A stretch of DNA of 64,000 bases, from NCBI GenBank assembly GCA_029582155.1, contig CM055898.1, positions 21,236,839-21,300,838 on the forward strand. The letters are read 5' to 3'. Source of the stretch: Panopea generosa. Its lineage: Eukaryota > Mollusca > Bivalvia > Adapedonta > Hiatellidae. The position numbers and the translations under genes are program-made. The notes under the pieces were generated by a model that saw nothing but the letters and a program-made list of their open reading frames with translations, was not told the origin of the DNA and made no database searches. Within the stretch, counting starts at the first letter, position 1; each line of letters opens with the position of its first letter. Shown here in pieces: positions 1,368 to 42,726 of this stretch.

Positions 1368-1373
1368 TTTATT
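1368..1373 (-). terminator. Polyadenylation signal AATAAA
   Basis: A canonical hexamer 36 nt past the receptor stop codon on the minus strand. If used, the 3' UTR is only about 50-60 nt. Confidence 0.55.
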
Positions 1374-1408: not shown

Positions 1409-1536
1409 TTAGGTCTGTAAAGCACCCAGTGCATCTTTCATTTTTAAATCAATAAATAAATGTTCCATGTATGTTTTGGTATATCCCTTCTCATCAAGTA
1501 AATCGAGGAAAGTGATGCCCGGTTCATTCGATTCAT
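1409..1536 (-). CDS. Receptor exon 20: second half of death-like domain and stop
   Basis: Residues 1207-1248, TAA at 1409-1411. ITFLDLLDEKG matches helix 4 with the usual acidic loop, YMEHLFIDLKMKDALGALQ matches helices 5-6 including the L-x-x-L...M-x-D/x-A-L pattern of death domains. Acceptor TTTTTTCTAG. The domain is the extreme C-terminus, as in many death-domain receptors. Confidence 0.77.
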
Positions 1537-4500
1537 CTAGAAAAAATGAACAAGTTTAAAAAAACACTTGGATCCAAAATTTAAGGTAATGCTAAATAAT
1601 CATATTCCATAAAACATTAGTATTAGTTATGATATGTTAAGGAATACTTATATATAAATTTGAAATATGTTCTTACTTATTTGCCTATATTCTTGTCTAC
1701 TAATGTTTAAATCGCAGTTGTCCACGATGTACATCCACCAAGTTTCTTCATTGGTCTCTTGTGTAGGTCGCTCTAATATCTTGGCAAGTTTCTTATAAAC
1801 AGTATGCATGGTGTTTGAGAGACGGTCACCTGTAATGGTCACCAAATAGCAAGATAGAATAGTATGATCCAATAGAAGAAAACAAATATTTTTATATCAT
1901 TTTTAATATATTTTTTTCGAATTGATTTTATCCTCTGCAAACAGCATATTATTTAACTTTAAGTATTAAACATATAGTAAATTTAAAGAAATGCTGAATA
2001 TATTAAATGTAAAATTTTTCATTTTATCAACAATGACCCGGATTCAATTTACCTGAAAACTCATTTCAAGTTACTTGTTTCGTGTTAAAACATTTACATA
2101 AAATTTCTTCCAAATAATGAGCGTAAGAAATAAAAGTAATCAAGCGAAAACACATTGTCTACATATTGTAACAGTGACATTGACTCGTTTAACTTCAATG
2201 TCAATCATAAGGTTCCTTTCCAAGCTAGTTATATATATACAGAAATGCATCTTAAGTTATTGCTAGGAATTCCTTTTCCGGGCGGTGAACGGGTAAATTG
2301 ACAGACAGACAGGGGTTACACTATATGCACACCCCGCTGGTTACTATTCGAATTGTTGGTGGATAAAAAGTTTAACTTAATCATATAACATGCGATAGTA
2401 CGAATGCAATGTACCTGGCTTATCCCTATTAACGGGTACTTGATCTGCTTGTACATAAACATGCGCGTCGGATTGTTTCTGGTCCAAATTGAGATAGGTA
2501 TTACTTAAGCTGGTGTTGGTAGTAACCATGATCTTATCGTAATCGTTAACTCTAGTGACATCATCAAGTTCCATATACGGTCCTGTGCGTTCCGTTTCAT
2601 TTTCTCCTGTTCTTGAATTTGTCCCGTTTTTCCTACAATATATTTATACAATATTCTTTCAAATATATGCATTTGCAACTATTGCATATACATGAATGTA
2701 ACAAACATCCTACTTAATAGATAGCACATCTAATAATAAGTTGGACAAAACATGTCAACTTAGGTGACCCATTAACTAAAGAATAATATATTAGAGAATA
2801 TGTTTAACTTATTGTTTACGTTCGATTACAATATCATTTGTGGTAACTACTATCTGTTATGTACTTGCATCTCGTCAATAAGACTGTCTAGATAATGACA
2901 AACTGAAACTTGAAAAATAAAATGTAATTCGTCTTTGTTTAATCAAATTTTGTTAATGACTTTCAATTTATATGTGAAATTTAAATGACGATAATATGGA
3001 TGTTGTATACATATGTTGGGGCTTAAAAATCAAAATGGTTAAAAGAGCCGCTAATATTAATAAATAAAGTATTGGGACCGTCTTTTTCAAATTACTTGAT
3101 TTGTCATCTTTTTACAGGTAAACGTTCCTACATTTACGGATGTTTACAATATCATTATTTAATCCAGTTCATACTATAATATTAATTATTAATAACTAAT
3201 CACCATATAAATATATCTAAATAAGCAGTACTTATTGTACATTTATAAATACTCAATTATTGTTATTGAAACCCTTTCTTTAATGTACATCATTTGACGT
3301 AAACCAACATAAATCTTCAAATATAATTATATTTTATAACTTAAAATATATGGGGGGGGGGGTAACTGAAATCACATCAACGGAATTTCCTATAATTGAG
3401 ATTTTTCATATGCACAATGTATGGTTTGGCAGATGCCTTGATATAGTTAAATTCACAAATAATTATCTCAATATATATATATATATATATACATACATAT
3501 TCCTGCATATTCCTTGTCTTCGTATATACCAATAAACCAAACAAACAACGACCAAAGTGACAACGATAGTTGCAGACACGACACCAGCAATAATAGGCGC
3601 CGGATTAACGCTGCTTCTGATTTCTGAAAAAAAAACACACACATATAAATAACTTAGAAGCTTCTTAAAAGCAGCGTTGCCAATATATATAAAAGGTGAC
3701 ATACATAAAATGATTTCCTGGCTGGAATAGTAACGAAGCAAGTAATCATTATAGCAACAAACATATATATATTTAACACAAAAGGTATCAAAGTAAAAGT
3801 GCCTGAGATAGATATGTTAAGCATTTCCAGCTTAAAATATGTGATTGTTTTATATATACTGTGGACATTCCTTGAACTGTCTATAAACTACAATCAATCC
3901 AGAAGAGATACTTTTTATAAGATAGAAATAGCTTTTTTCTCAATTTTATTCTAATGGATCACTGTTAATAACGAATAAATACTGTTTAAACTAAGACATG
4001 GAGTTTAAAAACAGTAAAACGTTGATATACGAGTTGATGTCATGAAACGAGCACTGCACAAATTGAATTTTTCTTCAAATTTTAAAATATAACGTCACTG
4101 TTTTTTGACGTTAACGTTCGTGATATTTTTAAGCAACAAACATACGTCATTATGCTTTAATGAATATAAATATTACCGATATATACAAATGAAATTGATA
4201 CGTTTAATGCTACTGCGCCGATCAAACACATGTTATGAATCAATCGCTTGTAAAATCGATAAAAGATTGAACTGTTTTAATCGAAATGGTATTTTTTTAT
4301 TTTATGCTCTTTGATAAATTATAGAGATATACTTTATTTCTTTTGATTAATCCAATAATATCTAATGGCAAATTGAGCTCACAATAAACAAAAATGTCTG
4401 CAAATGCATAAAATAAAAAGAAAATTTGTTTGTTTTGGTGTAAGATCAAATAATATTCTCACGAGCCACTTGGCTAAGCACTAGTCAGAATATAATTTTT

Positions 4501-7500
4501 GGTGATCACGAAAATATAATTTTGGTGATCAAATGAAAAAAATGAAATAATGAAATATAATGTAATCATGAAATATTATTCGATCTTACACCATAACAAA
4601 CAAATATCTTCTATATCATCTATATAGATAACAGTTAACTAACGCATATTCATCTTCTGTTACTTGTCCATGCCATTGTTTGAACCAGTGATATTTTAAA
4701 TGAAATCAGCATGGGAGTCTCGGTGATGATAGCAGTTCAGTATAGAAACCTTCGGTGATGTTAGCAGATGAAATGAATTATAGAAAATCTTTTGATATAA
4801 TTATTGAAATTCAGGGGAAAGGAAGCATTGGTGATAGTATCACTTAGACATTAGTGTAGGACCTTGATGATGTTTCAACTGAACATCGATGAAGGAACTT
4901 CGGTGATGTTAGCATTTGGACTTTTTGTAGAACCTTCATTGATATTATCAAATTGACTTAAGGGAAAGATGAAGGAAACCTTGGTGAAGTTATCAATTAG
5001 ACTTTATTATCATGACGTTACAGTTGTAAACATGCAGAAGACCTTGATGCTATTACCAGTTGGACTAGTGTAAATGAATAAAACTGAGTTAAAACTATTA
5101 GATATTTTAAGTAATTGTGAAGGTGGTTGATATGAATATATACAAATACAAGAGGATGACGTACAATACGTGATATATTTCTTACCATCTGGATCAAGGG
5201 TTATAATGTCAGTCACGTTGGATCCATTTGTAACACTCGTAACTGTAAATACTTTAGGATATTTATATGTATTTAATATGATTTCAAATCGCAGTCAGTT
5301 ACATTCCCTTGCTTTTTACTAGGGGCGAAATGGTTGCGCTATGATACAAATAAGTGAATTAGTTTATGATATCATTTTCACTTCGTCTACACAATAAAGC
5401 GTGTGTAAGATACAATTTCATCGGCAAGGAAGTTATCTTGCAGCAACACGTAAATCAATGATGCCATTGTTTTGCGCTGTGTTAAAACACTTTTATTTTT
5501 ATTGATTAGTATACATAAAAGCTATATTTTATTTTCTTAATGTCATCAATAGCATTTTGAACAATGTCCATGCACTGTTTCCCTTGATGTACACAGATGC
5601 TATTGTTTGCTGGACTAAATTCAATTTACAATAAATAAAACATGATATTTTGCGCTTAGATGGTATTCTCTGTATCTGCAAAATTACCACCTTGTATTTC
5701 TACAAAAAAACAGTAGAATCAAATTTCGGAAATCTTACTGCAGTACTTGATAAAAAAAGCAGACTAGCAGAAAAAAACGTGCTAAGAAATCCTGAAGGAA
5801 GAAGAAATGTGTTTAAAGGGCCATATATCATATTAATCAATACGGTCAGGTGATGACTGAGTCGTTCAAGTGTCAACAAAGAATGGCAAACGTCGATTTA
5901 TATTTTGATTTCATTGAAATAAAGGCAAAATCTTTTAAATCATCTTCATGATCAAAAACACAATACCTCCTATAAATATATTGACATAAAGGAAGAAAGC
6001 TTAATTTATTTCATATTTTATATCAACTTTTGGAGCCGTAATACAAAAACTTAAGGCAGCAACTTTATTCTTTGACCTGGTGGACTTGTGTTTCTAATGC
6101 ATTAATTTTGATATATATAAATTACTCACATATGGTATAATCAATTGACTATATGGTATAAATATTTGTTTAAATATCAATTTGCTAATATATATCAACA
6201 ATAATGTTATATACTTAGCAGTTGGAAACAAAAATGTATTGCGAGAATTTTGTTGTTTGTTAACAGTGCTGACATTTAATTTAAAAGTTCACATAATAAT
6301 ATTCATGGCGGATACAAGAAAGATTAAGACAATCAACCATGCATGGTAATCTACATAATAAACATACTTTCCGTGTTACGAAATTATTCCATAGACTCAA
6401 TATTCACAATCCATACCCTCCTTCTAAAATACATGTTATACTTACTAGTATCCATATGTATCACGTATGTATTTTCAGCTTGAATGTTACCAACAACAGA
6501 GTAAATCTTGATTGTGTATATCGTTCCAATCGACAATCCAGTAATGGGTTCTAATAAAGATGTTAAATACCAATGGACATTGGTCCTTGTTTCATTATGT
6601 AAACCGGGATCAAACGTAAGAATATATTCCTGCCATGTACGGTCTATGTCTGTAATGGTTATACTCGTTTCTTCAACCATATAAGTTACGTAACTGGGAG
6701 GTGCAGGCCCTGTAAGATAGTTTAGCATATGTTTCTCATAAGTAAATTGTTTAAAACTAGGAAACAATGTATTATCAAACTAACTTACTTAACAAACACA
6801 TGTTAAACTGCTGCCATACTGGGATTTGTTCACTCATCTCTTTAATTATATGAGTACATGTGTAAGGTGGTGTGGCCACTGCAATACAATTATGCATAAG
6901 TTTTATTTTACTTTTTTATATATAATAACACTAGGTGTCACTCGTAAGATGCTACTATTTGTTACATTGTTAGGTGGTGAAGTTTATGAATCTCAAGTTG
7001 CTATAATATGTTACATAACTAGGTGGTGTGAACCCTTCAAGTTAACTAATCGTAAGTGGCTATAATTTGTACTAGGTGGTGTGAGCCATGCAAGATAAGA
7101 AAGTATATGTTACTATAAAATGTTCTAAGTGGTGTGAGTCATGCAAGAGAAGAAATTATATTTTACTATAATATGTACTCGGTGGTGAGAATCATGCAAG
7201 ATAAGTAATTATATCTTACTATAACATGTACTTAGTTGTGTGAGTCATGCAAGATAAGTAATTATATCTTACTATAACATATACTAAGTGGTGTGAGTCA
7301 TGCAAGATAAGTAATTTTATGTTACTATAATATGTACTAGATGGTGTGAGGCATGCAAGATAAGTTAGTATATGTTGCTATAATATGTACTAGGTGGTGG
7401 GAGTCATCCAAGATACGTAATTATATCTTACTTTAATATGTTACTGTACTTAGTGATACAGGATAATGTATGACATATATCGCTTTAATAAGTTACTATG

Positions 7501-10500
7501 TGGAACGCGTGGTACAGTGTTAGAACACCGAACCCATGATCAGAGGGTCGGCTATGTGTGGTGTCCTTGAGCAAGACAACTTTTCTGCATATGCTTAGTA
7601 CTTGTTCTACCAAGGAAAATTTTGAGTGTATTTTGTATAAGTTGTAATAACTTGTTCGCAATCGAAGTAAGAATAATAAGTTTGAACTTTTATGTTACTA
7701 ACACTACTAGGTTGCATGGGACTTGAGATATAATTACATGTAAACGTTCACCGCTTAAGTAAGTTACAGTACTAGTTGGTAAGGATTCTGCAAGATAATC
7801 AAACATACATTGCTTTTTCGTTTCTATGGTATTTAAAAAGAAAATGTAAATTACAAAGAAAGGTAAATAACAAAGAAAGGTATATTACAAATTTAAAGTA
7901 TTTAAAACTACGAAAAAGCATGTCATTAAAATATAACGTATCAAAATTGGTTTGCTTATACAAATGCGTTTATCCATTATAATCTATAAAAACGGCCGGG
8001 TCCGATTAGCTCATTCGGTTACACGTCTGTCTACCAATCCAGGGCTCGTGAGTTCGAATCCCCCGTCCGGCAACAGTCTCTGTGATAATTGATATACGAC
8101 ATTGTGTCTCATTATCATTCGTCTCTCGCCACTGATTCAAGTGGAAAGTAATCAAATTCTTGCGGAGATAAGATGTGCTCGAGTACTGGTTAATCCCAGG
8201 AAACAGTGGTTAGGTTAACTGATCGTCTGTTAGCCCTCGATTGCATAAAAATGACGCTAAATATTCAATCAATCATTTAATATAAACGTGTATGGAAAAA
8301 AATATTCAGTAACCACTAGTAATAATACTATACAGAATAGTTTTTCAACCAACTAGTTCTTTGTTCGCCATTGTATTATTGTATATAGGAATAAATCAAG
8401 ACATAAAGGCGACCTTTGATTTTTTTATCAAAACATAATGAACAATTGTGTTACTATCAAGAGTTTGATTGAAAATACATGATTATAAGATAGTTTAGGA
8501 TTTGTCAAAACAAACATACTTGTATATATTGAAGGAAATGTAATGTTGATGGTGCTATATAGTCCAATCCATAATAACATAATAGCACCGTCATATAAAG
8601 TCCCTGGTGTCAATCCATCGAAAGTATAAGTATTCAAGTCTTTTCCAACGACTGATGTTTTATTACAGCTTAAATCAACAGATTTTAACCATGCCTTGTA
8701 CATACTGACGCCTGCAACTGACTGCCAGAACACTGTCAAGTTACGTTCGTGTATATGCTCGAGTGGAACAGTTCCGGCAGGTAGAGGTGATTCGTCTATA
8801 TAGGTATATAAGAATATGTAACGATACAGAGAATTTCAGCATTAAATGTAACATCTTATTAAACATTCTACATAATTTGTCGATTTATAGATAACATTAA
8901 ATGGGTTGGTTTACCGTCATTTCCAAACCAGTACACGTGCCATATTATAAATGGCATTCAGTTCTTATTGAGAAGGAATTAATCTGAGCAGAAACAGCAT
9001 CCTTCCGCAAGGAACAGGTAGAAATCGCATTTATCATTAAAACTACCTAAAAAGTTTCAACTATTCAATTACATACTAGTTTTTAATTACTGCAGCAAAT
9101 TTATAGCATTAATAGCATTTTTGAAATATTAACATTACAAATTATGAATGTGACACTATTACCTTTTTGATTATCCAACAGATAAGTTGCCGACACGTGT
9201 TATTATAATATTTATCAAATGGATATGCAGACTTGCATGCATTATAATTGAGTAAATCAAGTTTGAGCTATATATTTTCCTCATTTTATATTTTACGCTA
9301 TCTGTTTAGATTTTTCTAACAATTTGAAGTTAAATGGTTTAACAGACAATGCCTTAAAGCAGCGTTTATAGCAAATAAAATACAAGAGCACCGCGAGCGG
9401 GTGCTGACGATCGTCTGTATTAAAGTATATTAATGAATTTGTTTATGAAGTCTAGTCACTATTACATTAGTAATTTGTTCAGAATCAAAGAAAAAAAAAT
9501 GGCTGAACATTAATATTAACCAAGTCCACTAAAAAGGTCAAGGTCAGTGATGTTAACTTTTTTTAGATAGTGGTGATCAGTTTACAGAATAAACTGAATA
9601 TTACGGAAAAATAAAAAAGATTAAAAAACCGAGCTCAACAAAAAGATTTTAACCTAAGGTTTAAGAGCACTACACGTATGTATGGAATTTAGGTAAGTTA
9701 GGTTTATATATATTGTTTTAATAAAAGTGTTAATGATGTTTAGTCACCAAACCATGAGTAGTTCGTTCTTAAACAGAGACAATAGCTCTTCAGGGTATTT
9801 TGTTTTTCAAAGAGATGAGCTAATACTATATGAATGGAGATACATGTGATTTAAACATCCAGTTGAGCTACCGATTGTTAAAAGGTTTGACGATTTTTAT
9901 CATTTCTTCTTGATTTGTACCCACTGCTATGATTCAGTATGTGCTATTGTCGTGGCTATGTTTTCTGCTGTTTCAGGTCATAGTTGTTGATAGAACTTTA
10001 AGCTCAATGTTCGTATAGCTTGTATATACCGGAAAATATAATGTTAACTACTTGAACTCAACAGTGTATGAATTTGTAAAACAGTGTATTCAATGCGTTA
10101 TCTACATTAAATATAATTTCTCGGAAAGGAGTATAATTAGTAAAGCAGACAATCAGTAAAATTCTCGTAATTGTATCATGTCATGAATGAATGTACACTG
10201 TTATTGTATTGAGAGTCCAAACTTAGCGCTATATAATGTACAATGCTATAAAACATTGTATTGTTTTTAACTTTAGTATGATTAAGTTTATAATAATAAT
10301 AATACTAGAAATAGTAATAATGACAAAGATCAATATAATTATAATCATAAAAGTTATAATCATAATCATGATAAAAATAATGATAATGATATTAATGAAA
10401 ATAATAATGATAGTTATAATAATGATTACAATTTTAGTAATAATAATGATATTAATGAAAATAATAATGATATTGATAGTAATAACAATGAGTACAATTA

Positions 10501-12328: not shown

Positions 12329-12366
<38 letters not shown>

Positions 12367-16075: not shown

Positions 16076-16115
<40 letters not shown>

Positions 16116-34100: not shown

Positions 34101-37100
34101 GTTTTAACATGTCTTTTACTAATCTTTAAAAATAAAACTTATATTTACCACGATTATAACCAAGTTTTAAGGGTCAATAATTTGTATTGAATAAAACTAG
34201 AACTTTTGTCATATTATAGGTTGCTGAATTGTCCTCGTTAAATCATTCGTTTACACCTGGTTGGGCACAGCGACAACGACCATTATATTTACTAGCATGT
34301 ATATATAAATGATTTAACTTTCATTATGGTTAACATAAAGTCTTAGATGAGTTGACAGAAAAAAATACTGATCTGATATTGACTGTTAGCGAACAGATCG
34401 AAACCATAATCAGAAAAAGGCAGACTCTGTTTCATTGAATCATGATATGTACTGAAACATGTAACACAGCTCAGTGCCTTTAGTGCTGGCATCAGCGGCG
34501 TACAAGCAGTAGTGTATTCCAAAACAACACAGCATTAGGTCCATAACTAAAAAATAACAATAGGCTGTAATATGTAACATCTATTTCTCTGGATCATACT
34601 TGATTTACTATCATATACGAATATACAAACCTTTCAATTCACAGGAATAGTTAGTTCCACTCCATGTACCATTAGCCTGACACAGTCTGTTTTTGTTACC
34701 ACTTAAATCATATCCTTTTTGACACGTGTATGTCGCTGTAGAGTTGTATTTGTTAGTTTTAGTATCCGTAAGTACTGAACCATGTCCGGGATTTTTGAGG
34801 TTTCCACAATCTAAAAACAATACAATATCTAGATCAAAAAGAATATTTTGATCTGAAAAGAGTTTTCTGCATTTTAAGCGTTTTAACATGTCTTTTACTA
34901 ATCTTTAAAAATAAAACTTATATTTACCACGATTATAACAAAGTTTTAAGGGTCAATAATTTGTATTGAATAAAACTAGAACTTGTGTCATCTTATAGGT
35001 TGCTGAATTGTCTTCGTTAAGTCATTCGTTTACACCTGGTTGGGCACCGCGACAACGACCATTATAATTACTAACATGCATATATATGTGATTTAACTTT
35101 CATTATGGTTAATATAAAGTCTTAGATGAGTTGACAGAAAAAAATACTGATCTGATATTGACTGTTACCGAACAGATCGAAACCAAGATCAGAAAAAGGC
35201 AGACTCTGTTTCATTGAATCATGATATGTACTGAAACATGTAACACATCTCAGTGCCTCTAGCGCTGACATCAGCGGCGTACAAGCAGTAGTGTATTCCA
35301 AAACAACACAGCATTAGGTCCATAACTTAAAAATAACAATAGGCTGTAATATGTAACATCTGTTTCTCTGGATCATACTTGATTTACTATCATATACGAA
35401 CATACAAACCTTTCAATTCACAGGAAGAGTTAGTTCCACTCCATGTACCATTAGCCTGACACAGTCTGTTTTTGTTACCACTTAAATCATATCCTTTTTG
35501 ACACGTGTATGTCGCTGTAGAGTTGTATTTGTTAGTTTTAGTATCCGTAAGTACTGAACCATGTCCGGGATTTTTGAGGTTTCCACAATCTAAAAGAAAC
35601 AATAGAATACCTATATCAAAGAGGATATTTTGATCTGAAAAGAGTTTTCTGCATTTGAAGCATTTTAACATATCTTTTACTAATCTTTAAAAATAAAACT
35701 TATATTTACCTAGATTATAACCAAGTTTTAAGGGTCAATAATTTGTATTGAATTAAACTAGAACTTGTGTCATCTTATAGGTTGACGAATTGCCCTCGTT
35801 AAGTCATTCGTTTACACCTTGTTTGGCACCGCGACAACGACCATTATATTTACTAGCATGCATATATATGTGATTAAACTTTCATTATGGTTAACATAAA
35901 GTCTTAGATGAGTTGACAGAAAAAGATACTGATCTGATATTGACTGTTACTGAAAAGATCGAAACCATGATCAGAAAAAGACAAACACTGTTTCATTGAA
36001 TCATGATATGTACTGAAACATGTAACACATCTCAGTGCCTCTAGCGCTGGCATCAGCGGCGTACAAGCAGTAGTGTATTCCAAAACAACACAGCATTAGG
36101 TCCATAACTTAAAAATAACAATAGGCTGTAATATGTAACATCTGTTTCTCTGGATCATACTTGATTTACTATCATATACGAACATACAAACCTTTCAATT
36201 CACAGGAAGAGTTAGTTCCACTCCATGTACCATTAGCCTGACACAGTCTGTTTTTGTTACCACTTAAATCATATCCTTTTTGACACGTGTATGTCGCTGT
36301 AGAGTTGTATTTGTTAGTTTTAGTATCCGTAAGTACTGAACCATGTCCGGGATTTTTGAGGTTTCCACAATCTAAAAGAAACAATAGAATACCTATATCA
36401 AAGAGGATATTTTGATCTGAAAAAAGTTTTCTGCATTTGAAGCATTTTAACATATCTTTTACTAATCTTTAAAAATAAAACTTATATTTACCTAGATTAT
36501 AACCAAGTTTTAAGGGTCAATAATTTGTATTGAATTAAACTAGAACTTGTGTCATCTTATAGGTTGACGAATTGCCCTCGTTAAGTCATTCGTTTACACC
36601 TTGTTGGGCACCGCGACAACGACCATTATATTTACTAGCATGCATATATATGTGATTAAACTTTCATTATGGTTAACATAAAGTCTTAGATGAGTTGACA
36701 GAAAAAGATACTGATCTGATATTGACTGTTACTGAAAAGATCGAAACCATGATCAGAAAAAGACAAACTCTGTTTCATTGAATCATGATATGTACTGAAA
36801 CATGTAACACATCTCAGTGCCTCTAGCGCTGGCATCAGCGGCGTACAAGCAGTAGTGTATTCCAAAACAACACAGCATCAGCTCCATAACTAAAAATAAT
36901 AATAGGCTGTAATATGTAACATCTATTTCTCTGGATCATACTTGATTTACTATCATATACGAACATACGAACCTTTCAATTCACAAGAAGAGTTAGTTCC
37001 ACTCCATGTACCATTAGCCTGACACAGTCTGTTTTTGTTACCAATTAAATCATATCCTTCTTGACACGTGTATGTCGCTGTAGAGTTGTATTTGTTAGTT

Positions 37101-40100
37101 TTCGTATCCGTAGTTACTGAACCATGTCCGGGATTTTTGAGGTTTACACAATCTAAAAACAATAGAATACCTATATCAAAAAGGATATTTTGATCTGAAA
37201 AGAGTTTTCTGCATTTTAAGCGTTTTAACATGTCTTTTACTAATCTTTAAAATTAAAACTTATATTTACCACGATTATAACCAAGATTTAAGGGTCAATA
37301 ATTTGTATTGAATAAAACTAGAACTTGTGTCAAAAAAAATAGTATTGTTCGCCATCAACCCGAAATAGAGTAGTGAAAAGATGTAATTTTTCAATACACT
37401 GCAACATCTTGTTAACGATGTACTTAAAAAAAAAATAACCATTTGTATAACTCTGTACAAAATCGTTTTGTTTTGTTTTTTCAAATACATGTTTGCTTTG
37501 AAGCTTATTTTAAGACATAAAAATATTTTTATTTCGCTGTTGTGACAATGATAATGATAGTACATTTTTTACACTTTTTTAACACGTGGTCGAATTAATT
37601 GTTTACCGATTTACTTACTGCCATATTTCCGGAAGAGAGTTTTCGTTCTTTATTAAAAGGGGAAACTCTTAAATCAGCTGTCACCTCAGAAATTCATGAA
37701 TTGATGGAGTTTCTTTTAATATAGGATAAGATTTATTTACAAAACAAGTACAAGCAGTTGTCGATCATCGATTATGCAACTTTACGTTGGCCAATCTTTT
37801 ATACGAAATACATAAAATACAATTTAATTGCTTTTGTTTACATTTCGTCAGCTGAAATGTCAAGCAAATCACATGCAAGCAAGCACATGTTAAAAGGTGA
37901 TGCATAGTGTTCTAATGTTGTAAAATATCCATTTATTTATACATGTAATTGTTTTGAACTGTTTAAAGTATGTTAGCTGCACGTTTTGGAGAGCTGGTTA
38001 ATCGTTCTATGCAACAAGGAAATACAATTTCCATGCATTGAAATGTGATTTCAAGCAAAGTACACAAGTGATGACTTCAGTACTTGTTACTGCGTAATAT
38101 TTACCTGGCACTCATGAATAGTTCGTGTAAATTCCGTAAGTAAGTTTTCGGTGTTCAAGCCTAAATAATGATATGAGTTTTGATACCAATACATTACTAA
38201 ACAGATAGCTGAATGGATAAAACATTTAACTGTAAATCTTTTTGTTGTGGGTTCGATGCTTGTGTCTAACCCGCAATCATTTTTTATGTTTGATCTACAT
38301 AACGACCAACTCAAATGATAAGATACAAACTTTTATGTATAGCTGGTATGAGATATTACAGATTAAACATTAACTATGACGGCAGTAGCACGGACACAGC
38401 CAGAAAAGGCAAATGCATTTTATTTTATTTGATATTACGGTATTTATTTACTGTAACGAAAGGCCGAAAAAAAACAGGAATTATTAAATTTTGTTATAAT
38501 ATATATATATATTACAAATAAAGACTGCTGTCCGGTAGTGCATTTTAAATAATGTAAATATAAAATGCATAATAAGACATTTAAAATACAAACAAAATTG
38601 TATGAATCTGGATTCAAAAATATGGTATCTAACGTGAGTCAGATAATATGCACCACTGGGTTATTAGTTGATTTAATTTATTACATCAGTTTGTAAAAAC
38701 ATTTTTCTGATACAATTATTGAATGAAACACTCGAACGTGTTGATGAAGATTTATAAGTGCCAGGCAATAGCATTGTGAATTAATATTTTGAAGTTAAAC
38801 GCTTTCTTTTCTTTTTTTAATGTGGTCTAAGGTGCTGTGTCAGTATCACTTATCACTCCCTTCTATGGTCGTAGGTTTGGGTCAAGCGCGCTCAAAAAAC
38901 TTAATATAAGAATGTTTGCGAGTTACTTGCACAAGGACGGTGGTTCTACTGAGATTAAAAAAAGAACGTGGATTTATATATAACTTTAAGGCAATCACAA
39001 CTGGACATAAAAGAATACGAAAAGCAATGTTCAGAAAAAGTAAATTTTAAAGGATGTATATCATGAAAATGTTTTAAAAAACAAAATAATTATTACAATG
39101 ATTAAAAAGCATCTATTATCGTTAATAAATAAAATCTGAATGTCAAATCAATCAAAACGTGACACAATCAATATTTAAATTGGAGTGATAAACTTGATAC
39201 GAAATTACCATTCTAAAAGTAGACAGCATGTAAATACTGCTTGACGACCTCGCATTGTCACTCAGACTCTTTCTAAGATGAAACAATGTTTACTACGTGT
39301 AAATTTGTATAACGGATATATTGAAATCACGTGACTCCATACAATACGTCACAGAATATGTTGCAATTTTTAGAGGGAAATCTATTTTAGTCTTACCTCG
39401 GCACGTAGCATAAGTAATCGAATCCCTTTATAATATATTATACAATAAAGGGTCAATGAGTACATATAGGCATGCTATAATGGAAGAAAATGGTTTAAGC
39501 CAATTTTAAAAGTTAGAAAATTCTGATAAATTCCTTTTAATACCTCCAACAAAGCTTGTGGATATAATTCAAAGCTGGTTACACTGGTTAAATGAGTTTG
39601 TTGAATCGTATTCTCATGACAAATTGAGTTGTGCAACAAATGAGATAATATATAAACAACAATCTGTGACTGGAAACCAATCTGTGATTTTAACCCCAAG
39701 AAACATTCCAGTAGCGTTTTAAAGAAAAAAGTTTATTGGGAGTCAATGATAATAGTTTAAACTAATATATATATTTTAGCTCGATTGCGCAGAAAGTTTA
39801 AACTTTATAGGAATCATATGTAAGTACATATAATAATAGTGTTCATGAAAAATATTGTTTTTTCATATTATTATATCAGGTAAACTATAATTTTACAATT
39901 ATATAAAACTACATGTATTTCGTTTTTCGAAAGACCTATACAGGAACCTCGCATTTTTGTATATGACAGTTTTATCATCATTGGACATTAACATATGAAA
40001 TGTTTTGCTGTAATGCTGAAGAGTCTCTTCAATTAAGATAATTTTCACCAAAAACATCTTTTTTCAAATGTTCATACACTGTATATTCATGAAAAATTGA

Positions 40101-42726
40101 AATTCAGACTCAATTACAAAAAGATTTCTCTATAAACATAATGGACAAAATCTAAAAATTTTAGCTAGCCCAATATGACGACTTTTTTTCAATTATAAGA
40201 TTATGCGTGGACTTTTTAAATTTTGCCAACGTTTGTCTTAAAGGAAATAAAAATAAATATTTTTCAGGATTCAGTAATAATTTTAAGTTTTTATATATAT
40301 CGGCTTTACTTGTATCATTCAAACAACTTCTGCAAGTAACAGTCGCGTATCCTTTGTTTAACATTTCAATGAATATACTTGCATTGCCAACACCTTGAGC
40401 AATCCAAGCATATCTAAAGCCTAGTTAAAATAATACCGTATATGACTAGCTTTAGTTTTGCGTCCAGCATCATCAAGCCGTTTTAGCATAATATAGCATT
40501 AATATGGATATCTTTTCCGATCCATATGTAATAGTTTGATCCTGGGCCCGGTTTCTCGAAAATACTTAAGTCTGCTATTTTACTTAAACTCAAATAGTGT
40601 GCTCAATTTAAGTAAAATAAGAGACTTAAGTATTTTTGTGAAACCGGGGCCAGTAATTAATACACTGTGACACATATGTAGTGCAAAGTGGTAAACGGCC
40701 ACATTCGCCATAAACAGAACAACTAGCTGTCTGTTGAGTTTAAGCACAATATTGACTGCAGAATTTTAAATGAACTTTCTCCAGCCTATCAATAAACTGA
40801 TACTTCCATATTTCTGCACCATAGCATAAAATGGGTTTGACCATGCTGTCAAATAATTTGAAAATATCTTTTCGGGATAAACTATCGAAAATTATGCTGA
40901 TATATAAATTTATATAAAGCACCTCCATTTCTAAAGACCATTATTTAAGTTTTAGTTTCATCTAAATTGATGTTCATGTGGACGGAATCACAAAAATTAG
41001 ATATAAATTGATTTGTCTTTAATACATAACAACTGCATTATCCTGCTGTGTATGACCGTAGACCTAAAGACATCAAAAGAAAATTGAACGTTGAATTTTA
41101 AGTTTTAACTTAAACAATCAAAACCAGTAGTTTGAATCTGTAGTAACCGATTTTGTCAAAATTTGTTTTACTATAATAAATTTAACGAGGGTAATTTAGG
41201 TAAACAAAATTAAGTGAAATTATGATGTTAATTCCCTACCTGCAATAGTTGATGCTGTTAATGAGGATGATGATGATTCTGAAGGCGCTTCTAATGTTGA
41301 AGATATAGGATCGCCTGCACTCTCTTTTTGTGCTAATACAACAGTTCTTGTATCCAGCAAAACAACTAAAGTCTAAATATAGTTAATGAATAGCTTTATT
41401 TAAACTCAAGTGAACAATGTTTATGTTTAAATATTACATGAACATAGGACTTATGGTTTCAAGTGGAAACAAATAGTTGTTAACAAATAAGGAATTACTA
41501 ATAAATACTACTTCTTGAGTCACCGGAGCTTGTTTTTCATTTATTATGTTACTACTTTTTTAATCAAACCTTGAATATATTTAAAATGCTTTTACTTTTC
41601 TTGTTTTGTTAATATTACATAACCGTTTAAAAGTCATATCGATATTCAAGTGTGTGTGCTTAGTTTTAATTTGATTTTATGCCTTTTCAATACATTTAGG
41701 TATATTGCAATTTGTTTTGCCAGCCATGCTTGTAATGCAAATAGTCATTGTATGTCATAAATTGTTGTATTGGTGTATTTTATCCGTGTTTCTCTTTTTA
41801 AAAGATATATAAGTATATTGTTCCAAAAATGATAAAGTTCTTCATGTTCCTTTCATTTTTTTCTGTTTCATTAGTTCCAAAGTTACAGTTCTTACATTCA
41901 AATAAATATTTCATCTTAGTAATGTATTTAAAACATATGAAACTCCTACAAAAATTGATGAACACGTATACATTCCTAGAAGAGATTATATAAACAGTCA
42001 CGTAAAAAAATTCACAAAGGTTTGAGTAATCAAATTTGCATTTGAACAAAGATTTGTACGTAGCTATGATTTTCATTCTATTTATATTGGGAATTTCTGA
42101 GTTTTGTAATTATAGTTGATTTAATCGGCAAACGATATGTATATTGTTCCTTCTGTGTGTGTAATCATGGCTTCGTTTAAGTCTTAGTTCTATTTTAAAG
42201 TCATATAAACAATGATTTCTTATCATTTATATGCAAGTTCAAAATATGAGTTACATGTATTGCGGTTAACAAAATGCACTTATCTGATTGGTCAGTAATA
42301 GTCACTTTGGTTGGCAGCGCAGGTCCATAATTATTAGAATTAAGAAAATCAAAGATTATGATTGTGTCAATTCAAGCCGATATAATTTATTAATTTATTC
42401 TAAGAGAATCATTGTAAACATCAGGGTAAAATTATCGGTCATGATAAGGCTTAACAGGCGAAAGAGTGTGGTTAGGTTCGAACCCTCACCACCTTCCTCA
42501 CCCACACACACACATCTTGTCTTTTCGTGTTCATCATCCGATAGCAGTCGTTGCCTGACAAATGTCCTTCGTGCACTTTATTCGTACTTACAGTATCGAA
42601 CATCCGGATCCATGTTCAACATAAACAGCATGGCTAGTGTTATCTAATAGACAGGACTTCAATTTCTGTGATAAAAAAACAGCTACTTACCACCAGAACC
42701 ACAACCGTTATATAAATCTTCCCCAT
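1409..42726 (-). CDS. Sushi-EGF-FN3 transmembrane receptor with ITAM-like tail and death domain (20 exons)
   Basis: Predicted type I cell-surface receptor of 1248 residues. Exons from the start: 42691-42726, 41240-41372, 36973-37152, 36192-36371, 35410-35589, 34631-34810, 33852-34031, 32948-33127, 28042-28197, 20935-21225, 19966-20244, 18795-19055, 10658-10945, 8520-8795, 6446-6709, 5186-5242, 3497-3623, 2415-2632, 1677-1829, 1409-1536. All introns are GT-AG and the codon phase matches at all 19 junctions. Domain order: signal peptide (about 1-27), Ser-rich linker (to 56), CCP x6 (57-416), EGF (417-468), FN3 x6 (469-1021), stalk, TM helix (about 1051-1074), tyrosine-rich tail, death-like domain (about 1159-1246). 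Ligand and function are unknown; adhesion or immune/phagocytic sensing is inference. The ectodomain resembles mollusc receptor-type tyrosine phosphatases, but I see no phosphatase active-site motif. Exons in the long introns could have been missed. Confidence 0.88.
1677..1829 (-). CDS. Receptor exon 19: first half of C-terminal death-like domain
   Basis: Residues 1156-1206. The pattern is an amphipathic first helix (LSNTMHTVYKKLAKILERP), then ETWWMYIVDNCDLNISRQEY, where the W and the I-x-R-Q-E segment match death-domain helices 2-3 (Trp, then LA, then a short helix before a polar loop). Acceptor CATTACAG, donor A|GTAAGAAC. The nearest look is the IRAK/Pelle or UNC5-type death domain; assignment is by motif reading only. 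Confidence 0.75.
1830..3496. other. Two short receptor introns (1830-2414, 2633-3496)
   Basis: AT-rich intron sequence apart from exon 18. A G-run of 11 at 3351-3361 and an (AT)n run at about 3470-3492 next to the exon 17 donor are the only marked features. Confidence 0.6.
2415..2632 (-). CDS. Receptor exon 18: tyrosine-rich cytoplasmic tail with ITAM-spaced motif
   Basis: Residues 1083-1156. Contains YMELDDVTRVNDYDKI, i.e. YxxL, eight residues, YxxI, with Tyr at 1102 and 1114. This fits the ITAM consensus (YxxL/I-x6-8-YxxL/I) bound by tandem-SH2 kinases of the Syk/Zap70/Shark type. Two more Tyr follow: YLNL (1129) and YVQA (1142). Acidic and Asn/Thr-rich otherwise, so probably disordered. 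Acceptor ATTGTAG at 2633-2639, donor CAG|GTAC. Phosphorylation is inference. Confidence 0.85.
3497..3623 (-). CDS. Receptor exon 17: transmembrane helix
   Basis: Codes EIRSSVNPAP, then about 24 hydrophobic residues (1051-1074: small GVVSAT core, then VVTLVVVCLVYWYI), then basic RRQGICR, giving a type I stop-transfer. The acceptor has a nine-T tract before CAG. The donor AT|GTATGTA abuts an (AT)n run and leaves phase 2, which matches the single G that opens the next exon. Confidence 0.85.
4424..4605. mobile_element. MITE-like element with 36-bp terminal inverted repeats
   Basis: Left end 'atttgtttgttttggtgtaa' and right end 'ttacaccataacaaacaaat' are inverted copies, matching over about 36 bp with few mismatches. 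The 182-bp element has no coding capacity and an internal direct repeat 'aatataattttggtgatca'. No clear target duplication seen. It lies in the intron between exons 16 and 17. Confidence 0.6.
4700..5080. repeat. Degenerate short tandem repeat
   Basis: Repeats of a 'cttcggtgatgttagcagtt' type motif at about 4708, 4749, 4826, 4899, 4978 and 5040, with irregular 40-75 bp spacing. Confidence 0.5.
5186..5242 (-). CDS. Receptor exon 16: short juxtamembrane stalk
   Basis: A 57-nt phase 1-1 exon giving ITSVTNGSNVTDIITLDPD (residues 1022-1040). Two overlapping sequons (NGS, NVT). Acceptor ATTTACAG, donor G|GTAAG. Its reality rests on good splice sites and on phase agreement with both neighbours; if it is skipped the frame is also kept, so it could be alternatively used. 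Confidence 0.7.
5243..6445. other. Receptor intron, nothing recognisable
   Basis: 1.2 kb of AT-rich intron. Short open frames on either strand have no motif or splice support. Confidence 0.5.
6446..6709 (-). CDS. Receptor exon 15: fibronectin type III domain 6 (membrane-proximal)
   Basis: 264-nt phase 1-1 exon, residues 934-1021. PAPPSYVTYMVEE start, EYILTFDPG (C strand) and TGLSIGTIYTIKIYSVVG (F strand). Sequon NET. Acceptor CTTACAG, donor GTAAGTAT. Confidence 0.88.
6930..7450. repeat. 53-bp intronic tandem repeat, about 9 copies
   Basis: 'aggtggtgtgagtcatgcaa' recurs at 7021, 7074, 7127, 7180 and onward at 53-bp spacing, each followed by 'gataagtaattatatcttac' and 'ataatatgtact'. The first units at 6930-7020 are more diverged. 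Lies in the intron between FN3 domains 5 and 6. Confidence 0.85.
7501..7697 (+). mobile_element. tRNA-derived SINE, family 2, B box deleted
   Basis: Matches 51234-51448 ('cgtggtacagtgttagaaca', 'ccgaacccatgatc', 'gctatgtgtggtgtccttga', 'tgcttagtacttgttctacc'). The B-box segment present in the other copy is missing here, so it cannot be transcribed from its own promoter. Confidence 0.6.
7994..8275 (+). mobile_element. tRNA-derived SINE, family 1
   Basis: A box 'tagctcattcgg', B box 'gagttcgaatccc', then a unique body with 'gatatacgacattgtgtctc' and 'aggaaacagtggttaggtta', and the tail 'cgctaaatattcaatcaatc'. Other copies at 23637-23932 (minus) and 28565-28800. Confidence 0.8.
8520..8795 (-). 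CDS. Receptor exon 14: fibronectin type III domain 5
   Basis: 276-nt phase 1-1 exon, residues 842-933. DESPLPAGTVPLEH start, LTVFWQSVAG (B-strand Trp) and DGLTPGTLYDGAIML (F strand). One Cys next to a sequon (SCNKTS). Acceptor CTATATAG, donor A|GTATGTTTG. Confidence 0.85.
9385..9670 (+). repeat. Interspersed repeat beginning 'caagagcaccgcgagcgg'
   Basis: The GC-rich start with the small hairpin 'gcaccgcgagcgggtgc' stands out in AT-rich intron. A related 'ataaaagagcaccaccttga' occurs at 30101. I associate this kind of start with mollusc repeats, but the class is unknown. The rest of the intron 8796-10657 shows only low-complexity DNA. Confidence 0.4.
10270..10560. repeat. AT-rich (AAT)n low-complexity tract
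   Basis: Long run of imperfect ataataat/gataatgat units. The open frame across it (10236-10511, plus) is Ile/Met repeats and is not a gene. Confidence 0.85.
10658..10945 (-). CDS. Receptor exon 13: fibronectin type III domain 4
   Basis: 288-nt phase 1-1 exon, residues 746-841. PLPPSSVQIITQ start, NIIMTFPE in the B strand, ISGLTSGTPYTFIVFTR as the F strand. Acceptor CGATTTCAG and donor GTAAGCAA. The B-strand Trp is absent. Confidence 0.88.
11790..11998. repeat. Cluster of CCAATTGG-like palindromes
   Basis: At least seven variants of 'tccaattgga' or 'tccaatggga' in 200 bp. 11947-11985 forms an inverted repeat ('atcgtccaattgga' against 'ctaattggacgat'), and 'gattctatttatag' occurs at 11918 and 11981. 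Confidence 0.5.
12186..12366. repeat. (TAG)n microsatellite
   Basis: Imperfect gtagtagtaat repeats. They create open frames on both strands (12169-12462 and 11988-12476) that are pure repeat translation (Ser/Val or Thr runs). Confidence 0.92.
13308..13466 (+). mobile_element. SINE family 3, 5'-truncated copy
   Basis: Matches the body and tail of the complete copy at 24598-24915 in reverse orientation: 'cgtgtcagtataatcgga', 'tttcatgccatgtgtgtc', 'gacaccatcgcgatatga', 'gacgcttaaccctatacaac'. The tRNA-like head is absent. Confidence 0.65.
14104..14249. mobile_element. Palindromic non-autonomous element, short copy
   Basis: Ends 'ctcacaccactatta' and 'taatagtggtgtgag' are perfect inverted repeats of 15 bp. 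The interior 'cctccttcatctgtagg' is shared with the longer copy at 15568-16019. The two could also be the outer ends of one ~1.9 kb element. Confidence 0.6.
15568..16019. mobile_element. Palindromic non-autonomous element, long copy
   Basis: Same left end ('taacgtctcacaccactatt') and a right end with 'taatagtggtgtg', where 'gtggt' is duplicated. About 300 bp longer in the middle than the copy at 14104-14249. No open frame. Confidence 0.6.
16025..16112. repeat. (ATC)n/(ACC)n and (CT)n microsatellite
   Basis: Pure 'atcatcatc' then 'accacc' then 36 bases of 'ctctct', directly after the palindromic element. Confidence 0.95.
17795..18440. repeat. About 142-bp tandem repeat, 4-5 copies
   Basis: 'catacgcgacactagatttt' recurs at about 17800, 17941 and 18085, and in weaker form near 18222 and 18357. 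Each is followed by 'ctcacttgatacacaa', 'gactatagatttttcttact' and 'ttcaaattccttatttgaca'. Two overlapping plus-strand open frames here are repeat artefacts. 16113-17794 shows no gene or repeat. Confidence 0.85.
18795..19055 (-). CDS. Receptor exon 12: fibronectin type III domain 3
   Basis: 261-nt phase 1-1 exon, residues 659-745. PKPVSRAYI start, LTLYMES in the B strand (Trp replaced), DLKAGTLYTIKIYTY as the F strand, ending ELEIFT before GTAAGTATC. The shortest FN3 of the six. The next exon lies almost 8 kb away. Confidence 0.88.
19056..20934. other. Introns between FN3 exons 10-12
   Basis: 19056-19965 and 20245-20934 are AT-rich with no recognisable element. Confidence 0.55.
19966..20244 (-). 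CDS. Receptor exon 11: fibronectin type III domain 2
   Basis: 279-nt phase 1-1 exon, residues 566-658. PDSPTNLALANI start, LTVTWQNN (B-strand Trp), NYILTIDPAP (C strand) and LEGGTEYTITMES (F strand) give a clear FN3 pattern. Contains two Cys (GKCDN and IPCSDD) that could form an extra disulfide. Acceptor TCTTTTTCAG, donor GTAAGAGTT. Confidence 0.9.
20935..21225 (-). CDS. Receptor exon 10: fibronectin type III domain 1
   Basis: 291-nt phase 1-1 exon, residues 469-565. Starts RPILQDTTVVV after a TTGTAG acceptor. It has the B-strand Trp (FTVGWKG) and the SGTNFDIRLYI version of the F-strand L-x-P-x-T-x-Y motif. Ends VSTYT before GTAAGTATG. One complete FN3 module per exon, as in the five exons that follow. 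Confidence 0.87.
21226..23636. other. Long intron between EGF and FN3 exons, left part
   Basis: No exon, RNA gene or clear repeat recognised. A short G-rich patch at 21434-21462 ('agagggggcgtagtcagggg') breaks the AT-rich background. Confidence 0.5.
23637..23932 (-). mobile_element. tRNA-derived SINE, family 1, reverse orientation
   Basis: On the minus strand: 'gattagctcagtcgatagtg' (A box), 'cgtgagatcgaatcccc' (B box), shared body 'gatatacggcattgcgtctc', tail 'aacactaaatattcaatc'. The head is flanked by GC-rich 'gccgggcccg'. Confidence 0.8.
24598..24915 (-). mobile_element. tRNA-derived SINE, family 3, full length with 13-bp target duplication
   Basis: Minus strand head 'gcgtggtctagtggtagagc' (A box) and 'gggttcgatccccgg' (B box), a body with the inverted pair 'ggggtatcatacca' and 'ggcatgatactcc', and tail 'gcgacgctaaacaccataca'. 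The 13-base direct repeat 'tctgttctaatga' at 24585-24597 and 24916-24928 marks the insertion. Confidence 0.88.
24929..27610. other. Long intron, unassigned
   Basis: AT-rich. Antisense-overlapping open frames at 26064-26351 have no motif, no splice context and no repeat match I can see. Confidence 0.5.
27618..27690. repeat. GA/CG-rich simple repeat
   Basis: 'gagagagcgagagcgcgcgc' followed by 'gagagagagacagacaaaga' and 'cagacagacagac'. Opposed open frames (Arg/Ser runs) are artefacts. Confidence 0.85.
28042..28197 (-). CDS. Receptor exon 9: EGF-like domain
   Basis: 156-nt phase 1-1 exon, residues 417-468. Six Cys with EGF-like spacing (CTKDGHQGQC, then C, then FFTCQC, then DIC), with GG before the aromatic pair. 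The acceptor is TTTTCCTCCAG and the donor GTAAGTTC. No obvious calcium-binding D-x-D/N-E start. It sits alone between two long introns and links the sushi array to the FN3 array. Confidence 0.87.
28565..28800 (+). mobile_element. tRNA-derived SINE, family 1, third copy
   Basis: 'aaagctcagtcgaaagcacg' (A box), 'gagttcgaattcc' (B box), 'gatatacgacattatatata', and tail 'ataacgctaaatattcaa'. Internally shorter than the 7994 copy. Confidence 0.78.
28801..30640. other. Intron between EGF and sushi 6, right of the SINE
   Basis: No gene or strong repeat recognised. A short 'gtgcgtgcgtgcgtgc' run at 28952-28967. Confidence 0.5.
30640..31765. repeat. Imperfect ~325-bp tandem repeat plus GC-richer tail
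   Basis: 'tgcacaaattgataaaaaaa' at 30687 recurs as 'tgcacaaatggatgaaaaaa' at 31011, and 'gggcccgtataaatactagc' as 'gagcccttataaatactagc'. A third partial unit follows. The end, 'gacgacagacgacggacaac' with 'caagaggctcatgggcctta' and 'cggtcacctga', has the look of an abundant bivalve repeat. Open frames inside are repeat-derived. Confidence 0.65.
31860..32365. repeat. Two direct copies of a 'tatatagatttagtaaagta' repeat
   Basis: 31877 and 32272 share 'tatatagatttagtaaagta', then 'cccaccc', 'aaaccgtgagacc' and 'gacccataggcgtccataat', at roughly 395-bp spacing. Confidence 0.6.
32707..32752 (-). pseudogene. Relic of a seventh sushi exon (5' part only)
   Basis: On the minus strand this stretch lines up with the acceptor and first ~14 codons of the live sushi exons: AG, then D-L-G-A-L-T-N-P-E-H-G-S-V-T in place of D-C-G-N-L-K-N-P-G-H-G-S-V-T. 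The first Cys is lost and the match ends after the VT. It sits about 200 bp downstream of sushi 6, so it is probably a decayed edge copy of the array and not part of the mRNA. Confidence 0.6.
32948..33127 (-). CDS. Receptor exon 8: sushi/CCP domain 6
   Basis: 180-nt phase 1-1 exon, residues 357-416. The most diverged copy (TNSNKYN, GNNNRLCQADGLWSGTYPSC), with one fewer downstream sequon because NSS is replaced by YPS and NGT by DGL. The terminal G joins TT of the EGF exon to give Val. Confidence 0.9.
33852..34031 (-). CDS. Receptor exon 7: sushi/CCP domain 5
   Basis: 180-nt phase 1-1 exon, residues 297-356. Inner-copy signature (VLTD, QKGYDLSG) with ESK instead of ELK after the last Cys. The upstream intron still matches the ~780-bp unit; the downstream spacing to sushi 6 is longer (904 bp). 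Confidence 0.92.
34631..34810 (-). CDS. Receptor exon 6: sushi/CCP domain 4
   Basis: 180-nt phase 1-1 exon, residues 237-296. Identical to sushi 2 and 3 except NYS for NSS just before the fourth Cys; the sequon is kept. The acceptor is TTTTTAG and the donor GTTTGTAT, as in its neighbours. Confidence 0.92.
35410..35589 (-). CDS. Receptor exon 5: sushi/CCP domain 3
   Basis: 180-nt phase 1-1 exon, residues 177-236, with the same protein sequence as sushi 2. It carries VLTD and QKGYDLSG, the inner-copy signature. Like the other inner copies it has three N-glycosylation sequons (NST, NGT, NSS). Confidence 0.92.
36192..36371 (-). CDS. Receptor exon 4: sushi/CCP domain 2
   Basis: 180-nt phase 1-1 exon, residues 117-176, four Cys and the Trp of the sushi fold. 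The protein is identical to sushi 3, and the surrounding introns are almost identical too, so this is one of the newest duplicates. The acceptor tract reads TTTCTTTTAG, two to three bases longer than in sushi 1, 4 and 5. Confidence 0.92.
36973..37152 (-). CDS. Receptor exon 3: sushi/CCP domain 1
   Basis: Exactly 180 nt, phase 1-1, one complete sushi module (residues 57-116). It has the four canonical Cys (positions 2, 30, 44, 57 of the module), the GYDL segment and the conserved Trp before the last Cys. It differs from its neighbours by DCVNL instead of DCGNL and shares VTTD and QEGYDLIG with sushi 6 rather than with sushi 2-5. Confidence 0.9.
37271..40154. other. Intron upstream of sushi 1, left part
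   Basis: Mostly AT-rich unique sequence. 38198-38290 (plus) has a tRNA-like A box 'tagctgaatgg' and B box 'gggttcgatgc', and 38823-38890 a 'tggtctaaggtgctgtgtca' head; both are probably old SINE heads. Confidence 0.45.
40155..40990 (-). pseudogene. LINE (non-LTR retrotransposon) ORF2 C-terminal remnant
   Basis: Two frames on the minus strand look like the end of a non-LTR reverse transcriptase. 40740-40928 has 'LFDSMVKPILCYGAEIWKYQ' and 'LEKVHLKFCSQYC'. 40161-40420 has 'AWIAQGVGNASIFIEMLNKG' and then 'LAKFKKSTHNLIIEK'. These are the conserved segments after the RT palm in this order. The frame is broken, the Cys-rich end is missing, and a MITE splits the copy at 40543-40652. Confidence 0.75.
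40543..40652. mobile_element. 110-bp palindromic MITE
   Basis: Left 'tgggcccggtttctcgaaaa' and right 'tttttgtgaaaccggggcca' are inverted copies, and the match continues inward through 'atacttaagtc'. The arms are about 30 bp. It is inserted in the LINE remnant. Confidence 0.72.
41240..41372 (-). CDS. Receptor exon 2: rest of signal peptide and Ser-rich linker
   Basis: Acceptor ATATTTAG at 41373-41380; phase-0 entry continues the hydrophobic run (TLVVLLDTRTVVLAQ), so cleavage is likely just after the VLA at residues 25-27. The rest (to residue 56) is acidic and Ser/Thr-rich (PSESSSSSLTAS), a likely O-glycosylated spacer. A competing acceptor seven bases downstream (after TTTAG) would put a stop in frame after exon 1, so the upstream site was chosen. 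The donor leaves G, which joins AT of the first sushi exon to give Asp. Confidence 0.8.
41373..42690. other. First coding intron
   Basis: 1.3 kb with a donor GTAAGT and acceptor ATATTTAG. The plus-strand open frame 42288-42647 shows no domain. A (CA)n run lies at about 42500-42513 beside a B-box-like 'ggttcgaaccctcacc'. Confidence 0.5.
42691..42726 (-). CDS. Receptor exon 1: start codon and signal-peptide core
   Basis: Codes MGKIYITVVVLV and ends at a consensus donor (G|GTAAGT) in phase 0. The ATG has A at -3 and G at +4. An in-frame TGA lies upstream at 42757-42759 with no other in-frame ATG between, which supports this start. With the next exon it forms a short basic n-region followed by a hydrophobic core, a typical secretory signal. 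Confidence 0.78.

Follow-up and report, generated by a model that had tools for sequence, protein, structure and literature searches.

The 64-kb stretch of DNA analysed here (C5:21236839-21300838; hereafter, the window) carries on its minus strand a predicted receptor gene that runs from 42726 to 1409 in 20 exons and that, rebuilt independently from the DNA, yields a single chain of 1251 aa. Every junction is GT-AG, the exon phases agree and the frame is open throughout. In these respects the one-chain, 20-exon receptor of the original prediction stands, its length of 1248 aa being the part that had to be corrected. The predicted chain begins with a signal peptide and continues through six sushi (CCP) domains, one EGF-like domain, six FN3 domains, a stalk, a transmembrane (TM) helix and an ITAM exon to a helical C-terminus; the six sushi, EGF, six FN3, single TM and YxxL-x8-YxxI motif previously claimed for it are all present in the rebuilt version. 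Neither a tRNA search nor the Rfam families gave a match within the 64-kb window. Minisatellite arrays with units of 50-159 bp lie in or beside the gene, at window positions 38-704, 7018-7503, 17793-18355 and 63545-64000.

The signal peptide is encoded by exon 1 (42691..42726), which holds the ATG and the first part, and by exon 2 (41240..41372), which supplies the remainder together with a Ser-rich stretch. Six sushi exons follow (exons 3 to 8; 36973..37152, 36192..36371, 35410..35589, 34631..34810, 33852..34031 and 32948..33127), each assigned from the gene model and Pfam, the sixth being the most diverged copy. Over the whole chain, Pfam reports six Sushi stretches (E 6.3e-69) and five fn3 stretches (E 1.5e-18). 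Between window positions 32948 and 37152, five of the six sushi exons lie within tandem repeats of ~780 bp that include intron sequence. Copies 2-5 differ by 0-4 in 180 nt, and copies 2 and 3 are identical in DNA over the 180-nt exon, a pattern that suggests recent duplication or conversion and possible variation in copy number.

The EGF-like exon (exon 9, 28042..28197) has six cysteines with a spacing of 8-6-10-1-12, and has no match in Pfam. The FN3 exons, FN3_1 to FN3_6 (exons 10 to 15), lie at 20935..21225, 19966..20244, 18795..19055, 10658..10945, 8520..8795 and 6446..6709. When searched singly against Pfam, one of the six passes the fn3 cut-off (FN3_2, E 2.5e-9), four more match below it (FN3_1, E 0.0053; FN3_3, E 7.9e-4; FN3_4, E 0.0054; FN3_5, E 0.046) and the sixth matches solely another model, the torso FN3 (E 0.076). 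FN3_2 also shows a weak resemblance to the FN3 model of DEP-1 (E 0.0014), short of the cut-off.

A membrane-proximal stalk of 22 residues (exon 16, 5186..5251) and the TM exon (exon 17, 3497..3623) lead into the predicted cytoplasmic tail, the TM helix being the only one apart from the signal peptide. The tail comprises (i) exon 18 (2415..2632), with YMEL-x8-YDKI, YLNL and a fourth Tyr; (ii) exon 19 (DD1, 1677..1829), the first half of a death-like module; and (iii) exon 20 (DD2, 1409..1536), its second half and the stop. An AATAAA polyadenylation signal lies 36 nt past the stop (1368..1373, minus strand); between exons 18 and 19 there is no AATAAA, and a single ATTAAA occurs at 1907. By a rough hand-set splice matrix, the acceptors of the second signal-peptide exon, the stalk and the ITAM exon are poor and the TM donor is middling. 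Codon usage in DD1 and DD2 is modestly coding-like, with 39 and 45 of 454 open noncoding segments scoring as high, and some FN3 exons behave alike. Because of these weak splice sites and the modest codon usage, the model drawn from the window alone is plausible, not secure; its weak points are settled by the paralogues, since the 11 exons from FN3_1 to DD2 are all open in a second copy of the gene.

Across the 1.47 Gb of the window's genome, the ITAM, DD1 and DD2 exons occur in the same order and on the same strand at seven loci of C5, namely the window and 21.36 (copy 2), 19.717, 19.787, 19.852, 20.968 and 19.949 Mb. A match to the TM exon precedes the ITAM exon at all seven; at 19.716 and 19.786 Mb the similarity is weak (E 0.13 and 0.75, respectively), and these two are included because of where they lie. 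At an eighth ITAM locus, C5:19.648 Mb, the ITAM exon is accompanied by a weak match to DD2 (E 0.034), and DD1 was not found; this locus is counted among the eight ITAM exons and excluded from the seven full sets. A ninth ITAM match at C5:55.38 Mb (E 2.0) was dropped as chance. An additional DD1/DD2 pair is present at C5:0.5 Mb, and C6 carries a broken relative. A related C-terminal module also occurs as intronless copies (L012, L016 and L018) on C9, at C3:43.72 Mb and at C5:8.70 Mb; the copy at 8.70 Mb contains one stop. As these intronless copies run through the exon 19/20 junction, they lend independent support to that splice. They may be retrocopies of a related gene that lies outside the cluster. 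No relatives were found in viral contigs or prokaryote genome contigs.

Copy 2 retains all 11 exons from FN3_1 to DD2 and differs from the window gene by two coding indels of 6 nt each. Overall pN/pS between the two is 0.43; FN3_1 and FN3_4 taken alone are near 1, and DD1 alone shows 0 synonymous and 2 other changes. Among the paralogues, dN/dS ranges from 0.18 to 0.58 for the DD exons and from 0.20 to 0.76 for the ITAM exon, and is <1 in every estimated pair, the pairs being those with the window gene plus two preset pairs per exon set; for DD1, dS was unusable in four of nine pairs (one zero, three saturated). As judged from sequence comparison, the ITAM, DD1 and DD2 exons are coding, linked and jointly under purifying selection. 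The original prediction had allowed that exons 18-20 might belong to another gene, and this is very unlikely given that ITAM, DD1 and DD2 stand together behind a TM match at seven loci; the same co-occurrence with the ITAM exon led us to reject exons 19-20 as a separate gene.

Our results show that YMEL-x8-YDKI conforms to the ITAM pattern YxxL/I-x6-8-YxxL/I. When the 79-residue linker is shuffled 20,000 times, a motif of this type arises in 36 cases; shuffling the whole 177-residue tail yields it in 474 of 20,000. YxxL-x8-YxxI is conserved in eight of eight paralogous ITAM exons (the window's included), as is the third motif, YLxL, and each exon has at least four tyrosines; the linker surrounding the ITAM is variable among the paralogues. 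A typed query for a Syk-like tandem SH2 gave five weak matches in the window's genome and no locus with both SH2 domains: the first SH2 is matched twice, in order, on C8 (at E 1.4e-6 in a stretch interrupted by stops, and at E 3.5e-7), and the second three times on C13. Reading on past the exon 18 donor, over window positions 2377-2415, adds GTLHSYYRMLYD after KP and then a stop (2377-2379), and the same is seen in copy 2. An ITAM-only isoform that would lack the death-like module is therefore possible.

The C-terminus had been predicted to form a death fold, with Pfam Death as the proposed check. That check was negative, as the window sequence has no match to Pfam Death (PF00531) up to E 10, with search filters that discard most hits weaker than E 0.1. 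Among nine family members, the cut-off of 22.6 bits is passed by none (best, 15.0 bits); weak matches of 13.2-15.0 bits occur in three of the nine, over the same part, and one member scores better with the PHLPP RA domain model (E 0.002, 18.9 bits, below that model's own cut-off). A family profile against the PDB at E<=10 gave four chance matches and no death domain, a PDB phmmer search of the C-terminus a chance SNARE match only, and an NCBIfam search nothing useful. Structure prediction, looking for the six-helix bundle of death domains, covered the exon halves folded separately: DD1 gives three helices (2-18, 27-37 and 44-49; mean pLDDT 84) and DD2 two (9-15 and 20-40; mean pLDDT 80.7). Foldseek and VIA-align listed no death domain for these exon-half models, a result of little weight for half-domains.

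Profile comparisons provided a mixed picture. By hhalign, the nine-member profile aligns end to end with a profile of 12 known death domains over 81 columns (P 0.0011, probability 21%), and its score of 23.3 is equalled by none of 399 column shuffles and by a single one of 400 block shuffles; once nine native death domains from the window's genome join the twelve, no shuffle of either kind (399 and 400) scores as well. The profile of the nine native domains alone leaves the family unrecognised, with 21 of 399 shuffles as high. If only the seven two-exon members are used, without the two intronless ones, the score against the twelve is 17.7, within the shuffle range, and stays at 24.2 with the native domains added. 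Scored with the 12-domain profile, the window tail by itself comes 143rd among the 1892 sequences reported (of 2003) and does not beat its shuffles, and the reversed tail outscores the forward one; as a positive control, the 12 known domains score 18-61 bits, each against a profile built without it. A six-domain short-loop profile yields 8.3 bits, which is second place among the 1856 sequences reported (of 2003); being a post-hoc subset, this profile is excluded from the evidence. Taken together, the C-terminus is death-like and not a member of Pfam Death. We regard it as somewhat probable that it adopts a death fold, an estimate lowered by the PHLPP RA match and the seven-member score. What stands of the previous claim is a helical module; its naming as a death domain stands less firmly, as none of the nine members passes Pfam and the profiles disagree.

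In the original prediction, receptor tyrosine phosphatases with comparable ectodomains entered as a contrast from other animals. Here, at C5 19.5-21.6 Mb, at least nine phosphatase loci (19.54, 19.88, 20.00, 20.22, 20.39, 20.58, 21.01, 21.08 and 21.52 Mb) are interleaved with the eight ITAM loci, which shifts the reading from an isolated oddity toward a possible paired system. The matched phosphatase exon contains a stop at two of the nine loci (19.88 and 21.01 Mb), and a later stretch does so at two others (20.21 and 20.57 Mb). The ITAM/phosphatase pairs at 19.85/19.88 and 20.97/21.01 Mb resemble one large segmental duplication. At C5:20.099-20.131 Mb, ten EGF exons, 3.4-3.9 kb apart and 68-74% identical to the EGF exon of the window, lie by position upstream of a phosphatase locus and perhaps belong to a receptor with an expanded EGF array. 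Phosphatase exons are also numerous on C1, C3, C14 and C19 (860 first-look candidates genome-wide, 150 scored), so that receptor phosphatases look expanded in this animal.

One of these loci, which we call RPTP-A (C5 21.068-21.146 Mb), is on the same strand as the window gene and about 97 kb away. Our reading covered most of it, with 5 kb inside read as N, and found a signal peptide, seven sushi exons, an EGF exon, several FN3 exons (three by tblastn, the others by eye), a TM exon and phosphatase exons. Two pieces, joined from adjacent exons, match Y_phosphatase (E 1.8e-29 and 4.4e-32), with HCSAGVGRTG running across one join. On the basis of strand, order and the homologous TM exon, the RPTP-A front probably joins its own phosphatase exons. 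A tblastn search for the ITAM exon in the sequenced parts of the fetched locus (5 kb being N) gave no match. The earlier concern that exon 17 might splice to a phosphatase is likewise improbable, and we rejected splicing of the window gene into the RPTP-A phosphatase exons because RPTP-A has its own start and signal peptide, ectodomain and TM exon.

The 5' half of the window gene and the DNA upstream of it (20545..47295, minus strand) are common to RPTP-A in collinear gapped pieces, whose identity is 82-97% overall, about 94-97% beyond 27.2 kb and about 97% beyond 30.7 kb. The alignment includes 4.5 kb upstream of the start codon, and 47295 is the end of the compared DNA. Exon by exon, identity to RPTP-A is 91-100% for the signal peptide (12 of 12 residues in exon 1, 91% in exon 2), 98% for EGF and 84% for FN3_1, and in the RPTP-A sushi array (21.131-21.136 Mb) the seven exons match the window-type repeat at 85-100% identity, with 100% in two cases. 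Sushi copies 2-5 are nearly identical to one another, as are the two arrays, which suggests that they were duplicated or homogenised recently. Beyond FN3_1 the similarity falls, to 27% for FN3_2, 55% for FN3_4 and 50% for the TM exon.

Copy 2 shows the opposite trend, with 73-83% identity in its sushi exons (21.408-21.425 Mb), 86% in FN3_1, 91% in FN3_2, 95% in the stalk and 93-98% over FN3_4-6 and the tail. With a front like that of a phosphatase receptor and a back like that of ITAM receptor copy 2, the predicted window gene is a mosaic. FN3_2 is closest to copy 2 (91%); exons lying upstream of phosphatase loci come next (84, 77 and 73%), followed by neighbours of other ITAM loci (71 and 66%). 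FN3_6, which has nine genome matches, itself included, is less telling (95% to copy 2, with phosphatase-side exons at 75, 69 and 69% and ITAM-side exons at 72, 69 and 70%). These patterns, in which neighbours were assigned to genes by position and strand only, suggest that the same mixing extends to these exons.

Two features of paired receptors can thus be recognised in the exon-by-exon comparison of one ITAM/phosphatase pair, the window gene and RPTP-A. A near-identical putative ligand-binding region is found on two linked genes, and their tails are opposed, at the level of sequence alone, as ITAM against phosphatase exons. Since the front formed by the six sushi, EGF and first FN3 domains is nearly the same in RPTP-A, both receptors may bind the same ligand. 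Common front, opposed tails and linkage make up the anatomy of paired receptors, and from this we infer an activating receptor whose threshold would be set by a phosphatase. That the window gene is the activating member of such a system, with the same front and the opposite tail, is a reading we hold in even balance.

In such a system, clustering by ligand would allow a Src-family kinase to phosphorylate the ITAM, which in turn would recruit a tandem-SH2 kinase of Syk/Zap70 type. A second output would come from the death-like module, through oligomerisation with an adaptor of the death-fold type. RPTP-A, if co-expressed and co-engaged by the same ligand, would strip phosphates and set the threshold; on this reading, the two tails would signal in opposite directions.

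Tentatively, and at rather less than an even chance, we propose an undescribed class of receptors that would combine an ITAM and a death-fold tail, would be paired with phosphatases bearing the same sushi-EGF-FN3 front, and would have had its fronts swapped by recombination, the inhibitory arm being the phosphatase itself. Among the literature matches listed, as judged from titles and the beginnings of abstracts, we found described neither a receptor with both ITAM and death domain nor a phosphatase/ITAM pair with one ectodomain, which is no proof of absence. New with respect to the original prediction is the presence, in the same 2-Mb cluster, of phosphatase genes, one of which shares the front of the window gene.

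A possible though rather doubtful alternative is that the gene encodes an adhesion or phagocytic receptor, whose tyrosines are ordinary docking or endocytosis sites, whose C-terminus is a lineage-specific helical module unrelated to death domains, and whose likeness to the phosphatase receptor reflects common descent without a common ligand. Such a receptor is consistent with the failure of all nine members to pass Pfam Death, with the better score of another model for one of them, with the native death-domain profile that finds no match, and with the third YLxL motif and the fourth Tyr, which are as conserved as the ITAM. It accounts less readily for the YxxL-x8-YxxI spacing, kept in eight of eight copies and rare in linker shuffles (36 of 20,000), and for a family profile that aligns end to end in the death-domain register.

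It is unlikely that the gene represents, as originally proposed, a stand-alone class coupling Syk-type signalling to death adaptors such as MyD88, FADD or IRAK, without a phosphatase partner. Phosphatase loci are interleaved in the cluster and one of them carries the same front half and upstream DNA, and nothing points to MyD88, FADD or IRAK in particular; the coexistence of an ITAM and a death-like module in one tail is what speaks for this view. Finally, a non-functional mosaic produced by unequal crossing-over, as a by-product of an expanding cluster of phosphatase receptors, would agree with the near-identical sushi exons (0-4 differences in 180 nt, copies 2-5), the segmental duplication, the broken relative on C6 and the intronless copies on C3, C5 and C9, but is highly improbable in view of the open frame, the coding indels of 6 nt, the overall pN/pS of 0.43 against copy 2 and the dN/dS <1 in every estimated DD and ITAM exon pair.

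The putative paired system, with its ITAM and phosphatase arms, can be compared with several known receptor families. R3-type receptor tyrosine phosphatases (PTPRJ/DEP-1/CD148) have an FN3-rich ectodomain. The window gene is likewise rich in FN3, with FN3_2 weakly DEP-1-like, and RPTP-A has phosphatase exons; however, Pfam finds no PTP domain in the 1251-aa model, and sushi and EGF are added. Draper, CED-1 and MEGF10 are single-pass receptors with their own ITAM-type tail, as the window gene is predicted to be. Unlike Draper and MEGF10, it has no EMI or multiple EGF domains (over the Pfam cut-offs, Sushi and fn3 only), and its C-terminus is a death-like addition. The death-domain receptors of the TNFR family, p75NTR and UNC5 are also single-pass and end in a death fold, to which the death-fold-like end of the window gene corresponds, whereas Pfam detects in it no TNFR repeats or ZU5, the module is below the Pfam cut-off and the same tail carries an ITAM.

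In vertebrates, the paired immunoreceptors KIR, SIRP and PILR are linked paralogues whose ectodomains are nearly identical and whose tyrosine-based outputs oppose each other. Linked, near-identical fronts with opposed tails are common to them and to the system proposed here. Their opposing tail, however, is an ITIM, whereas here it would be a built-in tyrosine phosphatase; also unlike them, the putative activating tail adds a death-like module and the ectodomain is of the sushi-EGF-FN3 type.

With regard to downstream signalling, a survey finds Syk/Zap70 homologues in invertebrates only together with CARD-CC and Bcl10, and it infers that ITAM-bearing receptors of ancient origin stand upstream of Syk/CARD-CC/Bcl10 in these animals (PMC5978004). 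Any link of the present receptor to the ITAM-Syk-CARD-CC/Bcl10/MALT1 pathway would be a candidate one, by way of its ITAM.

According to a review, candidate allorecognition molecules in a cnidarian and in a tunicate carry ITAM and ITIM motifs (PMC12065747). The same review describes the fester genes of Botryllus and their co-receptors as clustered sushi-bearing receptors with activating and inhibitory roles, in which the co-receptor tails have ITIM, hemITAM or Y-x-x-I/L/V motifs (PMC12065747). Fester ectodomains combine Ig and sushi, each gene is paired with a co-receptor and not with a phosphatase sharing its front, and some tails have SH2; within the text consulted, the account mentions neither a death domain nor a phosphatase-tailed partner with the same front (PMC12065747). 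This is the closest published system we found, in that both have clustered sushi receptors with tyrosine-motif tails. If the reading of the window gene as the activating member of a pair is true, its cluster would add to these a concrete, testable recognition system in which the phosphatase that sets the threshold is built into one of the partners.
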